Made by a program: the position numbers and the translations under genes | Notes under the pieces: model-generated | Seen by the model: only the letters and a program-made list of their open reading frames with translations | Databases searched by the model: none | What the model was told of the DNA's origin: nothing | Shown: positions 60,186 to 64,000 of the stretch, piece by piece | How the letters are laid out: each line of letters begins with the position of its first letter | Position numbering within the stretch: position 1 is the first letter of the stretch | Origin: Marinilongibacter aquaticus | GTDB lineage: Bacteria; Bacteroidota; Bacteroidia; Cytophagales; Spirosomataceae | DNA length: 64,000 nt | Reading direction: 5' to 3' | Assembly (NCBI RefSeq): GCF_020149935.1 | Contig: NZ_CP083757.1 | Coordinates: 2,877,501-2,941,500 of the forward strand

Positions 60186-61007
60186 CTAAGCGGCCTGTTT
60201 CAAACCGTTTTGTTTGGCTCGGTAAAGAAGGAATAAACCCAAAAGAACCATCGGGATACTGAGCCACTGGCCCATGTTCAGGTTCATGTTTTGTTCAAAA
60301 GCCACTTGATCTTCTTTCAGAAATTCGTATACAAACCGAAGGGTGAAAATCCAAGTAAAGAACAGGCCCGATAAAAGGCCATCGGGCAAAGTAGCTTTGT
60401 ATTTCTTCCAAATGGCAAACATGATGACGAAGAGCAGCAGACAAGAAAGAGATTCGTACAGCTGGGAAGGGTGGCGGGGCACTTGGCTGAATTCGAAGTT
60501 TTGTTTGAACACAAAAGCCCAGGGTACATCCGTGGGTTTGCCGACAATTTCAGAGTTCATGAGGTTTCCGAAACGAATGAAGGCTCCGGTTAGGGCTACG
60601 GCCACAGACATGCGGTCGAGCAACCAAATAAAGGGTTGATCTTTGTGTCGTCGGCTATAAAGCCAAAGGCCCAAAAGAATGCCAAAACCACCACCGTGGC
60701 TCGCCAATCCGGCATAGGGCGGAATGAGCATTTCGGTAATGAATTTCAATGGGTCTTCGAAAAAGTGATTGCCTTCGTAGAAAACATAGTGACCGATACG
60801 GGCACCCAATACCGTAGAAATGATCATGGTTAAGAGAAGCGGATCGAGGTCTTTTTCGGGTTTGCCCTCGGTTTTGAATATTTTCACAAAAACTTGATAA
60901 CCCAAAAGGAAGCCACCTGCGAAAAGCAGGCCGTAATACCTCAGTTCGAAACTTCCAATTTTAACTATTGTGGGGTCAATGTCCCAGATTATTTCCGTAA
61001 GTGCCAT
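60186..61007 (-). CDS. lgt: Prolipoprotein diacylglyceryl transferase
   Basis: The 273-residue integral membrane protein with about 7 helices transfers diacylglycerol to the lipobox cysteine of prolipoproteins. Family motifs are present: YYGLLFAGGFLLGY, SHGGGFGILLG (His104) and RFGNLMNSEIVGKPT with Arg145, Asn148 and Glu153. The 258 bases between it and the Gfo/Idh gene hold nothing I can identify. It is divergent from the argC attenuator region. Confidence 0.94.
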   Translation of the reverse strand: MALTEIIWDIDPTIVKIGSFELRYYGLLFAGGFLLGYQVFVKIFKTEGKPEKDLDPLLLTMIISTVLGARIGHYVFYEGNHFFEDPLKFITEMLIPPYAGLASHGGGFGILLGLWLYSRRHKDQPFIWLLDRMSVAVALTGAFIRFGNLMNSEIVGKPTDVPWAFVFKQNFEFSQVPRHPSQLYESLSCLLLFVIMFAIWKKYKATLPDGLLSGLFFTWIFTLRFVYEFLKEDQVAFEQNMNLNMGQWLSIPMVLLGLFLLYRAKQNGLKQAA

Positions 61008-61060: not shown

Positions 61061-61091
61061 TTGTGAATCTTAATTTCAATACTGAATTTTG
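61061..61091 (+). promoter_or_regulatory. Candidate promoter of the argC leader
   Basis: TTG (61061-61063), a 20-base spacer and GAATTTTG (61084-61091, one mismatch to TAnnTTTG) lie immediately before the leader ORF. The -7 box ends only 7 bases before the leader ATG at 61099, so the transcript would have almost no 5' untranslated region before that ATG. Confidence 0.5.
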
Positions 61092-61098
61092 CATTCGA

Positions 61099-61155
61099 AT
61101 GAAACAGCATGCACATACGCTATCTTACTTCTTTCGTCGCTCACGTAGGCGATGA
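61099..61155 (+). CDS. Arginine-rich leader peptide of a probable argC attenuator
   Basis: The ORF ATG AAA CAG ... CGA TGA encodes 18 residues, MKQHAHTLSYFFRRSRRR. Five of its last six codons are arginine (CGT, CGC, CGT, AGG and CGA), and the stop follows directly. It lies between a candidate promoter and a small hairpin with T run, upstream of argC. In the classical scheme, lack of charged arginyl-tRNA stalls the ribosome on these codons and prevents the downstream terminator from forming, switching on arginine synthesis. There is no Shine-Dalgarno sequence, and the start may be at or near the 5' end of the RNA. It is too short for normal gene finders. Confidence 0.8.
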   Translation: MKQHAHTLSYFFRRSRRR

Positions 61156-61167
61156 GTGTATGCACAC

Positions 61168-61193
61168 GCCCATTCTGGGCATTTCTTTTTTTC
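61168..61193 (+). terminator. Attenuator terminator upstream of argC
   Basis: GCCCA-TTC-TGGGC (61168-61180) is followed by a T-rich run with seven consecutive T residues. The hairpin begins 13 bases after the leader stop codon, just outside the expected footprint of a ribosome sitting on that stop. Competing pairings are visible: GGCG (61148-61151, within the Arg codons) with CGCC (61167-61170), and ATGC (61160-61163) with GCAT (61179-61182). Either would disrupt the terminator stem. Folding energies were not computed. Confidence 0.7.
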
Positions 61194-61216
61194 AATCACA
61201 TTCAATTCTTTTTTAA

Positions 61217-62185
61217 ATGCAATCAGTTAAAGTAGGTATTATTGGCGGAGCGGGCTATACGGGCGGTGAACTGCTCAGGATTTTGTTGGGGCATCCCAAA
61301 ATAGAATTCGCTTTTGTCAATTCGGCAAGCCAAACAGGAAAGCATGTTTGGGAAATTCACAAAGATTTGTTCGGCTCAACAGATTTGAAATTCAGCAACG
61401 AAAAGGATTTGGGCAAAGCAGATGTGCTGTTTCTTTGCTCGGGGCATGGCCAATCGCTGAAGTTTTTGAATGAAAATTCTGTACCCGAAAAGGTGAAAAT
61501 TGTGGATTTGAGTACTGACTTTCGTGATGAAAGCAATGGCTTTGTCTACGGTTTGCCAGAGTTGAAGCGTGAAGAAATACGAGGAATGCAGAAAGTGGCC
61601 AATCCGGGCTGTTTTGCAACCAGCATTCAATTGGCCTTGTTGCCATTGGCCCATAAGGGTTTGTTGAAAAACGACGTGCATGTAAGTGCGGTAACGGGCT
61701 CTACAGGGGCAGGGCAATCGCTGAGTGCAACGGGGCATTTTTCGTGGAGAAACAACAACATTTCGGTCTACAAGGCTTTCACGCACCAGCATTTGAAAGA
61801 AATAGGACAGAGTTTGAGGCAATTGCAGGGCGACTTTGTACACGATGTAAATTTCATTCCTTACCGCGGCAATTTCACACGTGGAATAATGGCCAATGTG
61901 TATACTGCCTTCGAAGGTTCGGCAGAGGAGGCTTTGGCATTGTATCAAGAGTATTATCAAGCTCATCCTTTTACGTTTGCAATAGATCAAACGATCGACC
62001 TTAAAATGGTGGTCAATACCAATAAATGTATCGTTCAGGTACAAAAACAAGGCAAGCACATTTTGATTACGAGTATAATCGACAACCTTGTAAAAGGAGC
62101 GTCGGGACAAGCTGTGCAAAACATGAATTTGATTTTTGGTTTGGAAGAAACAACCGGACTCTCACTTAAACCTGTAGGCTTTTAA
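61217..62185 (+). CDS. argC: N-acetyl-gamma-glutamyl-phosphate reductase
   Basis: The 322-residue product catalyses the NADPH-dependent third step of ornithine/arginine synthesis. It shows the GIIGGAGYTGGELLR nucleotide-binding start, catalytic Cys132 in VANPGCFAT and the segment containing HVSAVTGSTGAGQ. Some Bacteroidota use N-succinyl instead of N-acetyl intermediates, and sequence does not settle which is used here. It is preceded by the Arg leader peptide/terminator and followed after 2 bases by argD. Confidence 0.95.
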   Translation: MQSVKVGIIGGAGYTGGELLRILLGHPKIEFAFVNSASQTGKHVWEIHKDLFGSTDLKFSNEKDLGKADVLFLCSGHGQSLKFLNENSVPEKVKIVDLSTDFRDESNGFVYGLPELKREEIRGMQKVANPGCFATSIQLALLPLAHKGLLKNDVHVSAVTGSTGAGQSLSATGHFSWRNNNISVYKAFTHQHLKEIGQSLRQLQGDFVHDVNFIPYRGNFTRGIMANVYTAFEGSAEEALALYQEYYQAHPFTFAIDQTIDLKMVVNTNKCIVQVQKQGKHILITSIIDNLVKGASGQAVQNMNLIFGLEETTGLSLKPVGF

Positions 62186-62187
62186 TA

Positions 62188-63306
62188 ATGAAAACATTCG
62201 ATGTTTACCCGCTTTATGATATTGTCCCCGAAAAGGCATTGTACTCCGATTTATGGGACGTAAACGGCACGCAATATCTCGATTTATATGGAGGGCATGC
62301 GGTCATTTCAATTGGGCATTCGCACCCTGTGTACGTAAAGGCCATTCAAGAGCAAGTAGCCAAATTGGGTTTTTATTCCAATTCGGTTCAGATTCCTTTG
62401 CAGCAGGTTGTTGCCGATCGCTTGACGCGTTTGGCCGGCTTGCCCGAGTATAAGCTGTTCTTTGTAAACTCTGGGGCCGAAGCCAATGAAAATGCCTTGA
62501 AATTGGCTTCTTTTTATACAGGAAGGAAAAAAGTGATTGCGTTCAAAAAGGGCTTTCACGGAAGAACTTCGGCAGCCGTGGCCGCTACTGACAACCCCAA
62601 GATCAAGTCCATGATCAACGACGACAGTCACGTCGAGTTTTTGCCCTTCAATGATGTGGAGGCTTTGAAGGCTGCAGTAAACGGCGAAACCTGTGCGGTG
62701 ATTGTGGAAGGTATTCAAGGTGTGGGGGGCATTCAGGTGGCGTCCGATGAATTTCTTCAAGCCATTCGCTCGGCTTGCGATGAGCACGGGGCGGTGTTTA
62801 TTCACGACAGCGTGCAGTGTGGTTACGGGCGTTCGGGGGCGTTTTTCTCCTTTGCATTCTCGGGCGTGCAGCCGGATATCATTTCAATGGCCAAGGGAAT
62901 GGGCAACGGTTTTCCGGTTGGCGGGATTTTGATTTCTCCGAAATTCAAAGCGGAATACGGCATGTTGGGCACTACTTTCGGAGGAAATCATTTGGCTTGT
63001 GCAGCGGCCAATGCAGTTTTGGAAGTGATTGAGGACGAGCATTTGATAGACAATGCCGCTAAGGTGGGCGAGTATGCAATGGAGCAATTGAAGGCTTTGC
63101 CGAATATCAAAGAAGTGCGTGGCCGTGGTTTGATGATCGGGATCGAATTGGAAGAGCCCGTGAAAGAGATCAGACAAAAGATACTGTTTGAAAATAAGAT
63201 ATTTACAGGGGTTTCGGGCACGCACACAATTCGTCTTTTGCCAAGTTTAGGTATTGGTAATGAGGAGATTGATCGTTTTGTTTCGGCTTTGAAACTTTAT
63301 TTGTAA
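62188..63306 (+). CDS. argD: Acetylornithine (or succinylornithine) aminotransferase
   Basis: The 372-residue class III PLP aminotransferase has cofactor-binding NSGAEANENALKLA, Asp207 (FIHDSVQCGYGRSG) and PLP lysine Lys236 (ISMAKGMGNGFPVGG). It makes the N-acylated ornithine from its semialdehyde. The gene is shorter than typical ArgD (about 400 residues) but complete, matching the compact Bacteroidota form. It is the second gene of the attenuated argCD unit; no further arg genes follow. Confidence 0.92.
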   Translation: MKTFDVYPLYDIVPEKALYSDLWDVNGTQYLDLYGGHAVISIGHSHPVYVKAIQEQVAKLGFYSNSVQIPLQQVVADRLTRLAGLPEYKLFFVNSGAEANENALKLASFYTGRKKVIAFKKGFHGRTSAAVAATDNPKIKSMINDDSHVEFLPFNDVEALKAAVNGETCAVIVEGIQGVGGIQVASDEFLQAIRSACDEHGAVFIHDSVQCGYGRSGAFFSFAFSGVQPDIISMAKGMGNGFPVGGILISPKFKAEYGMLGTTFGGNHLACAAANAVLEVIEDEHLIDNAAKVGEYAMEQLKALPNIKEVRGRGLMIGIELEEPVKEIRQKILFENKIFTGVSGTHTIRLLPSLGIGNEEIDRFVSALKLYL

Positions 63307-63417: not shown

Positions 63418-64000
63418 ATGAAATCAAACAGACGCAAATTTTTTAAGCAATCGGCTATTGGAGCCATCGGAGTAAGTGCAGGATCGGGCTTTGTGCTGCA
63501 ATCTTGTGCAGAAAGTGCGGCCTCATCTACAGAGAGCAAGAATCCCTTTCTGGAAATCGGAGATGGCATAGCCGAAGTGGATACGCAACACGGCAGGGTC
63601 AGAGGCTTCGTCTTGAACGGCATTCATACCTATTTGGGTTTGCCCTACGGAGCTGATACTTCTGGAAAGAATAGATTTATGCCCCCCAAATCGCCAGAGG
63701 CTTGGGAGGGTGTAAAGGAAACTTTATGGTGGGGCGACACTGCTCCTCAAATTATGGATGGCCGTTTCAGCAATGTAGAAGCGAGCTTTACCGACCATTG
63801 GAACTACGATGCCTTGAGTGAGGATTGCTTGCGTTTGAATATTTGGACACCTGCTACCGATGCCAAGAAAAGGCCTGTGCTCGTTTGGTTGCACGGCGGC
63901 GGTTACCGCAACGGCAACGGCATAGAGCAAGACGGTTATCATGGTGAAAACCTAAGCCGCAAAGGCGATGTGGTTTTTGTTTCACTCAACCACCGCTTGG
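63418..64000 (+). CDS. Carboxylesterase/lipase-family protein, 5' part
   Basis: The gene runs off the window after 194 codons. The N-terminus has a twin-arginine-like RRKFFKQSA and a hydrophobic stretch ending in a lipobox (LQSC, Cys30), so it is probably an exported lipoprotein. The visible part matches the type B carboxylesterase start: YLGLPYGADTSGKNRFMPPK, EDCLRLNIWTP and the oxyanion-hole WLHGGGYRNGNG. The catalytic serine lies beyond the edge. It follows argD after 111 bases in which I see no clear promoter. Confidence 0.85.
   Translation, partial: MKSNRRKFFKQSAIGAIGVSAGSGFVLQSCAESAASSTESKNPFLEIGDGIAEVDTQHGRVRGFVLNGIHTYLGLPYGADTSGKNRFMPPKSPEAWEGVKETLWWGDTAPQIMDGRFSNVEASFTDHWNYDALSEDCLRLNIWTPATDAKKRPVLVWLHGGGYRNGNGIEQDGYHGENLSRKGDVVFVSLNHRL

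Follow-up and report, generated by a model that had tools for sequence, protein, structure and literature searches.

A conserved arginine leader upstream of argC in Bacteroidota, most likely a trp-style transcription attenuator

Ribosome-mediated transcription attenuation is classical in Proteobacteria. The E. coli leaders trpL, thrL, leuL, and hisL combine an open reading frame (ORF) carrying control codons, overlapping hairpins, and a T-tract terminator before the first gene, and the same arrangement is found upstream of argC in the 64,000-nucleotide stretch of the Marinilongibacter aquaticus genome analyzed here (the window). Unlike the E. coli attenuators, the window leader concerns arginine, belongs to Bacteroidota, and is known here from its sequence. 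It also differs in that its predicted antiterminator is not above shuffled sequences and in that the hairpin overlaps the stop codon in several of the window's relatives. Among Arg-codon leaders, orf34 of Salmonella speF resembles the window leader in that its Arg codons sense arginine and the position of the ribosome sets the mRNA fold; it carries a pair of adjacent Arg codons at positions 12 and 13 of 34. Unlike the window leader, orf34 controls a polyamine gene, as the covered part of the paper describes, through Rho, RNase G, and the ribosome-binding site (PMC6386406). S. aureus rbfL is a short ORF with Arg codons (MVLKYRKR) that likewise senses arginine limitation but, in the excerpt covered, acts by translational occlusion of the rbf start and does not control an arginine gene (PMC13009471). 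The carA leader peptide of Pseudomonas aeruginosa precedes a gene feeding arginine synthesis, as in the window; however, carAB serves pyrimidines too, the excerpt of the citing paper ascribes its attenuation to pyrimidines, and the system is gammaproteobacterial (cited in PMC4997734). A further comparable system is uORFC-8-2 (cysS) of Rhodobacterales, a comparative RNA motif interpreted as ribosome-mediated attenuation. Like the window leader it has conserved control codons, a pair of stems, and a 3' end resembling a terminator, but it concerns cysteine and Alphaproteobacteria (PMC8632094, in the part covered).

The original prediction for this locus took leader-peptide attenuation to be established for amino-acid operons in other phyla. 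Such attenuation has also been suggested in Bacteroidota itself, where an excerpt on Flavobacterium psychrophilum speaks of 'strong clues' of it before amino-acid operons (PMC9723704). Short ORFs resembling leaders have been described in B. thetaiotaomicron (PMC7366714, in part), and the Bacteroid-trp RNA motif RF01692 is a Bacteroidetes cis-regulatory motif that takes its name from trp (PMC2864571, in part). The F. psychrophilum clues and RF01692 share their phylum with the window, and the covered portions of both papers name no arginine leader (PMC9723704, PMC2864571). In a largely open-access literature (titles and the beginnings of abstracts, with few subscription papers), no attenuator that controls transcription of arginine-synthesis genes by reading Arg codons came to light, in agreement with the earlier remark that no described arginine attenuator was known in Bacteroidota.

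As shown in Table 1, the leader ORF lies between the divergent gene lgt and argC. Its position, length, and Arg-rich ending are exactly as originally predicted, and the hairpin and T run expected between the leader and argC are present. The hairpin, GCCCATTCTGGGC, occupies 61168-61180 and is followed by ATTTCTTTTTTT, with the T tract at 61182-61192. Twelve bases separate the leader stop codon from this terminator-like hairpin, and the stop codon lies 61 nt upstream of the argC ATG. The leader frame is open also from a GTG at 61063. Folding of the leader region beat all 200 shuffles (z -3.4; 0/200 as good). Hairpin 1:2, formed inside the Arg codons in the minimum-energy fold, would correspond to the 'protector' of the attenuator model. 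The promoter-like stretch ends 7 nt before the leader ATG. No TAnnTTTG box was present within 230 nt upstream of argC in the window; the -7 promoter consensus behind this box is covered in excerpts of PMC7366714 and PMC9723704. Searching Rfam at the gathering score matched no family in the 64-kb window, and across 19 loci with leaders or arginine genes it returned two tRNAs and nothing else. A known Rfam element as the leader's identity was rejected on this lack of matches in the window and the leaders.

Table 1. Coordinates of the leader, its candidate RNA structures, and the neighboring genes in the window
Feature	Position	Strand	Basis
lgt, divergent; marks the conserved lgt-argC junction	60186-61007	-	TIGR00544 above cut-off
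Promoter-like stretch, TTGTG (61061-61065) and TTTTG (61087-61091)	61061-61091	+	Read by inspection; weak candidate
Leader peptide ORF, MKQHAHTLSYFFRRSRRR and stop	61099-61155	+	ATG...TGA, 18 codons, read from sequence
Hairpin 1:2 inside Arg codons, 61134-61141 with 61148-61155	61134-61155	+	Minimum-energy fold
Control codons R R S R R R (CGT CGC TCA CGT AGG CGA)	61135-61152	+	Read from sequence
Possible antiterminator 2:3, GGCG (61148-61151) with CGCC (61167-61170) plus inner pairs	61148-61170	+	Folding
Intrinsic-terminator-like hairpin 3:4, GCCCA-TTC-TGGGC, plus T tract	61168-61192	+	Sequence only
argC, N-acetyl-gamma-glutamyl-phosphate reductase	61217-62185	+	NCBIfam TIGR01850 above cut-off
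argD-like acetylornithine transaminase	62188-63306	+	NCBIfam TIGR00707, 373.6 bits, below cut-off of 410; Pfam Aminotran_3

The run of Arg codons directly before an arginine gene had been judged more than coincidence, and counts of short ORFs bear this out. Among 1530 ORFs of 8 to 40 codons on both strands of the 64 kb, the leader, with 5 Arg among its final six codons, is the sole ORF to reach at least 4. Across 60 mononucleotide shuffles of the window, the mean number of ORFs with at least 4 Arg there was 0.97, and with at least 5 it was 0.017. A degenerate version of the pattern (an Arg or Ser codon twice, any codon, an Arg or Ser codon three times, and a TRA stop) occurs 10 times genome-wide on both strands. 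Of the 8 occurrences examined, only the window leader had a terminator-like hairpin within reach, as called by our hairpin finder.

Conservation in close relatives was the check on which the leader might have been refuted, and it was not. At the divergent lgt-argC junction, recognized in relatives by an Lgt-like motif, an Arg-rich ORF (at least 3 Arg in 7 codons) occupies the same place in 15/15 fetched relatives outside the genus Emticicia and in 0/10 such loci inside it. The Arg-rich ORFs of the 15 distinct relatives end 28 to 62 nt before argC, with endings such as RRIFRV, RRIRRV, LRRIFRR, RRPIRNTLR, and RRPLRGLLRR directly before the stop; beyond this, argC-type leader peptides have little sequence in common. 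For 12 argC regions (the window and 11 relatives), all 12 have at least 3 Arg in 7 codons, compared to 3/12 for the next residue, Ile. The antisense strand of the same regions reaches at least 3 Arg in 7/12, and CG-rich composition therefore explains part of the Arg richness. The hairpin finder reported a terminator before argC in five of these loci (the window, L039, L034, L035, and L009) and none in the other seven (L032, L033, L010, L037, L038, L040, and L041). In the sister argC leaders L032, L039, L009, and L010, a hairpin begins 8 to 10 nt before the end of the stop codon.

A second Arg leader, MIQFSLPISPYRRMRSARTQ followed by a stop, precedes a GNAT acetyltransferase gene 1.1 Mb away in the same genome and carries an AGGTCC-GCAA-GGACC hairpin, as in the family. 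Across much of the family, argC belongs to an operon with the order GNAT-argG-(...)-argC, which in several genera has aat and proBA as neighbors (operon gene names were partly assigned by eye). A typical GNAT leader, HTTPFRFRSVRTI followed by a stop, has one hairpin over its last codons and a second, TTTGCC-TACGT-GGCAAA, behind the ORF. A covariance model built from 11 GNAT leaders (R1) matched 156/222 family genomes at E ≤ 1, in 26/36 genera, and 144/222 at E < 1e-4 (excluding 12 rows above 1e-4). Read by eye, 89/90 R1 matches had a GNAT start downstream. Covariation was measured on an alignment restricted to GNAT-type leaders (38 hand-picked varied sequences, including that of the window genome), in which 95.1% of cells were paired across the two helices. 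Double changes occupied 44 cells versus 11.8 in shuffles (0/500 as high), 8/12 pairs were changed on both sides, and sliding the helix partners lowered pairing to 26-51%. At E ≤ 1, R1 misses the window genome's own GNAT leader. A second model, R2, finds that leader at E 2.7e-7; the leader was among the sequences used to build R2, and the leader's kinship to the family element therefore rests on alignment. The window argC leader was not accepted into the GNAT-type RNA family, its best R1 score being only 6.8 bits with filters off. To judge from their sequences, the argC and GNAT leaders appear to share an idea without a provable common origin. In the window genome, argG is a solitary gene without an Arg-rich ORF upstream.

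Several further observations concern the GNAT loci. At 15 loci (L163, L164, L165, L167, L168, L171, L174, L176, L177, L179, L191, L203, L204, L206, and L207), the leader ORF has no stop after its Arg codons and runs into the 3' arm of the terminator-like hairpin, ending in LPMW and a stop or similarly, which the simple attenuation scheme leaves unexplained. A second conserved stretch, GGATACAGCGTCTCC, was seen by eye about 30 to 50 nt before the GACGATGA start in 8/8 loci (L223-L230, L228 being the window genome), with one base different in L224 and GAGG...CCTC often between it and the start. It lies between the leader hairpin and the GNAT start, has no Rfam match there, and is possibly a further RNA element; on 8 GNAT loci, Rfam gave two sub-threshold matches, both outside the leaders. 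In the small-genome genus g2 of the family (38 genomes, 1.5-3.2 Mb), most members keep argC, and the GNAT-type leader model found 3/38 matches, all weak (E 0.07-0.69). The TAnnTTTG box was rejected as the promoter of GNAT leaders, being exact in 10/93 versus 4/93 in a control stretch.

Beyond the family, R2 matched 72/390 genomes of an order-wide sample at E ≤ 0.01. Eight of these lie outside the family, in a few other families of the order, comprising seven with a GNAT gene downstream (six of them with an Arg-rich ORF) and one false match. In a class-wide sample, 5/395 genomes matched, all inside the family, and the covarying form therefore so far belongs to this order; anything broader depends on the Arg-tail and hairpin-loop counts that follow. 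Independently of the covariance model, we used 30 class-wide GNAT loci, one per genome, drawn from 17 plus 25 genomes with a GNAT match; 28/30 are from outside the order and 8/30 from one family. Second copies (L287, L289, L299, and L313) were excluded, as were L293 (no upstream sequence), L319 (no motif), and L320 and L321 (weak or broken). By a statistic that was picked after inspecting the sequences and is thus post hoc, a short ORF with at least 3 Arg in its last 10 codons lies upstream of GNAT in 21/30 genomes (20 other families), and one with at least 4 in 10/30. Shuffles of the 30 loci gave means of 2.96 (maximum 7) and 0.38 (maximum 3), respectively. The antisense strand gave 6 and 0, stretches inside the gene gave 6 and 0, and the next-best residue, Ser, reached 9/30 and 4/30. 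Arg richness in any 9 codons was discarded as a measure in other families of the class because it was not decisive (Arg 14/16 but Leu 15/16). The family's CCTAYGYGG-type hairpin loop was also found in 5/30 class-wide loci (L285, L286, L288, L301, and L307), compared to 0.18 in shuffles (maximum 2) and 1 on the antisense strand.

The repressor ArgR is the textbook means of bacterial arginine control. Pfam Arg_repressor (PF01316) was detected in 0/222 family genomes, while the same profile was present in 9/14 well-known genomes (8 over the cut-off), including a Bacteroides. The family thus seems to lack the usual arginine repressor, which would give the leaders a reason. Arg leaders across much of the class, including a family in which this profile has no match, would explain how the pathway is controlled. 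We consider the chances about even that, over much of the class Bacteroidia, leader attenuation responding to Arg-tRNA was the ancestral means of controlling arginine synthesis. It would have replaced ArgR in lineages without it (e.g., the window's family), and the leader would have arisen anew or been copied once argC had separated from the GNAT-argG operon, which is the situation in the window.

We then considered whether the RNA could switch between structures. The original prediction had 61154-61167 pairing with the terminator arms; the alternative pairing obtained by folding is instead chiefly that of 61148-61151, in the last Arg codons, with 61167-61170. With a ribosome placed on the first Arg codon, the RNA downstream of it is predicted to form this antiterminator 2:3 at -6.7 kcal/mol. 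We calculated the chance that the terminator 5' arm is paired before its 3' arm has been transcribed, folding the RNA beyond the front edge of the ribosome, which was set at the A site + 13. For the window, this chance was 0.61 with the ribosome on the first Arg codon of the run and 0.75 on the second; it was 0.57 on Ser, took the values 0.27, 0.22, and 0.00 over the three remaining Arg codons, and stayed at 0.00 at the stop; the four codons preceding the Arg run also gave 0.57-0.67. The window leader behaves in this test like trpL (0.71 on control codons versus 0.03 at the stop), thrL (0.82 on most Thr codons versus 0.01), and leuL (0.67 versus 0.01), but not like hisL. The latter, a true attenuator, gave 0.69 and 0.68 without the expected contrast, and the test is therefore imperfect. 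Shuffling the 20-nt spacer equaled the window's contrast in 29% (mononucleotide) or 18% (dinucleotide) of cases. The antiterminator was therefore set aside as proof of attenuation: the proposed folding check did yield an alternative structure, but 18-29% of shuffled spacers match its contrast.

For most Dyadobacter sequences, almost no antiterminator was predicted. The GNAT-type folding set comprised 91 loci, 30 of which were picked for the shuffle test. Among these 30 representatives, whose rows are related, 28 beat the shuffle median, and the mean fraction of shuffles reaching the contrast was 0.21. In the GNAT-type set, L222 was dropped because no GNAT was seen downstream, L143 and L200 lacked hairpin C according to the finder, and L194, L224, and L226 lacked the AGG anchor. 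The finder took a later hairpin in L227 and L228, so their folding rows are unreliable. Equilibrium folding with a masked ribosome was uninformative as a switch test because the terminator was favored almost throughout (P ~0.9 at nearly every position, with one dip to 0.5 on a Tyr codon).

The conserved arginine leader is real, and it is most likely a trp-style attenuator for a new amino acid in a new group. For the window itself, we think it probable that the leader governs argC-argD through ribosome-mediated transcription attenuation in response to charged tRNA-Arg. The attenuation originally proposed is favored by an Arg leader kept before arginine genes, a terminator, and fitting spacing, while its switch is not above shuffled spacers. 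From these features we infer the leader's transcription, translation, termination, antitermination, and response to arginine. Transcription would start near the leader ATG. With ample arginine, the ribosome would pass RRSRRR to the stop and cover segment 2 (61148-61155), the terminator with its T tract would form, and transcription would end before argC. With Arg-tRNA short, the ribosome would stall on the first Arg codons and open hairpin 1:2, freeing its 3' side to pair with the terminator 5' arm, so that RNA polymerase would read into argCD. In several sister genomes, where the hairpin reaches into the final codons, a stalled ribosome would cover the 5' arm, and occlusion would replace the antiterminator.

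Three other readings have to be weighed against attenuation of transcription. The leader could sense arginine starvation but act post-transcriptionally, a ribosome that stalls on the leader or is released from it altering argC translation initiation or mRNA stability, with a hairpin that is no working terminator. The weak T tracts of many GNAT-type elements and the seven argC-type loci without a called terminator point this way, and the known Arg-codon leaders act on translation, RNase G, or Rho, as far as the covered parts of the papers describe (PMC6386406, PMC13009471). However, the window leader ends too far from the argC ATG to block the start site directly, and a good T tract lies between its stop and argC, which makes this reading unlikely. 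The nascent peptide (HTTPFRFRSxRT or PISPxRRMRSARTQ) might instead stall the ribosome itself on binding free arginine or ornithine. SpeFL and the fungal arginine attenuator peptide are nascent-peptide sensors of this sort, and the GNAT-type peptide is indeed conserved outside its Arg codons across many genera (e.g., HTTPF). Yet some of this conservation is imposed by the hairpin that covers the final codons, and a biosynthetic operon requires the opposite sign of response. Furthermore, Arg codons vary in number and place and argC-type peptides share little, as sensing of codons predicts. We therefore regard a peptide sensor as improbable.

It is more improbable still that a chance Arg run merely adjoins an ordinary terminator with no regulatory role. 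That CG-rich codons are read as Arg on either strand would favor chance, as would a window antiterminator no better than shuffled spacers. Against it, the run is unique in the window, recurs before argC in every fetched relative outside Emticicia, and has a counterpart in the second leader of the same genome; the covariation of the GNAT form across the family and the class-wide excess of Arg codons argue likewise. Attenuation by a ribosome reading Arg codons is thus the reading we prefer, and it would make the leader a compact reporter system for probing the coupling of ribosome and RNA polymerase in Bacteroidota. If true, trp-style attenuation would operate in a phylum whose messages, according to an excerpt of PMC7366714, lack classical Shine-Dalgarno sequences.

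By its argC the window genome groups with Jiulongibacter, the gene being 75% identical to that of J. sediminis JN14-9 and 80% identical to that of a Cytophagales MAG. Matches of the argC query to plasmids were all below 60% identity and were set aside. Downstream of the argD-like gene, the start of a carboxylesterase-like gene (named by eye) with a Tat-like signal (MKSNRRKFFKQSAIG...) occupies 63418-63999 and runs off the end of the window.
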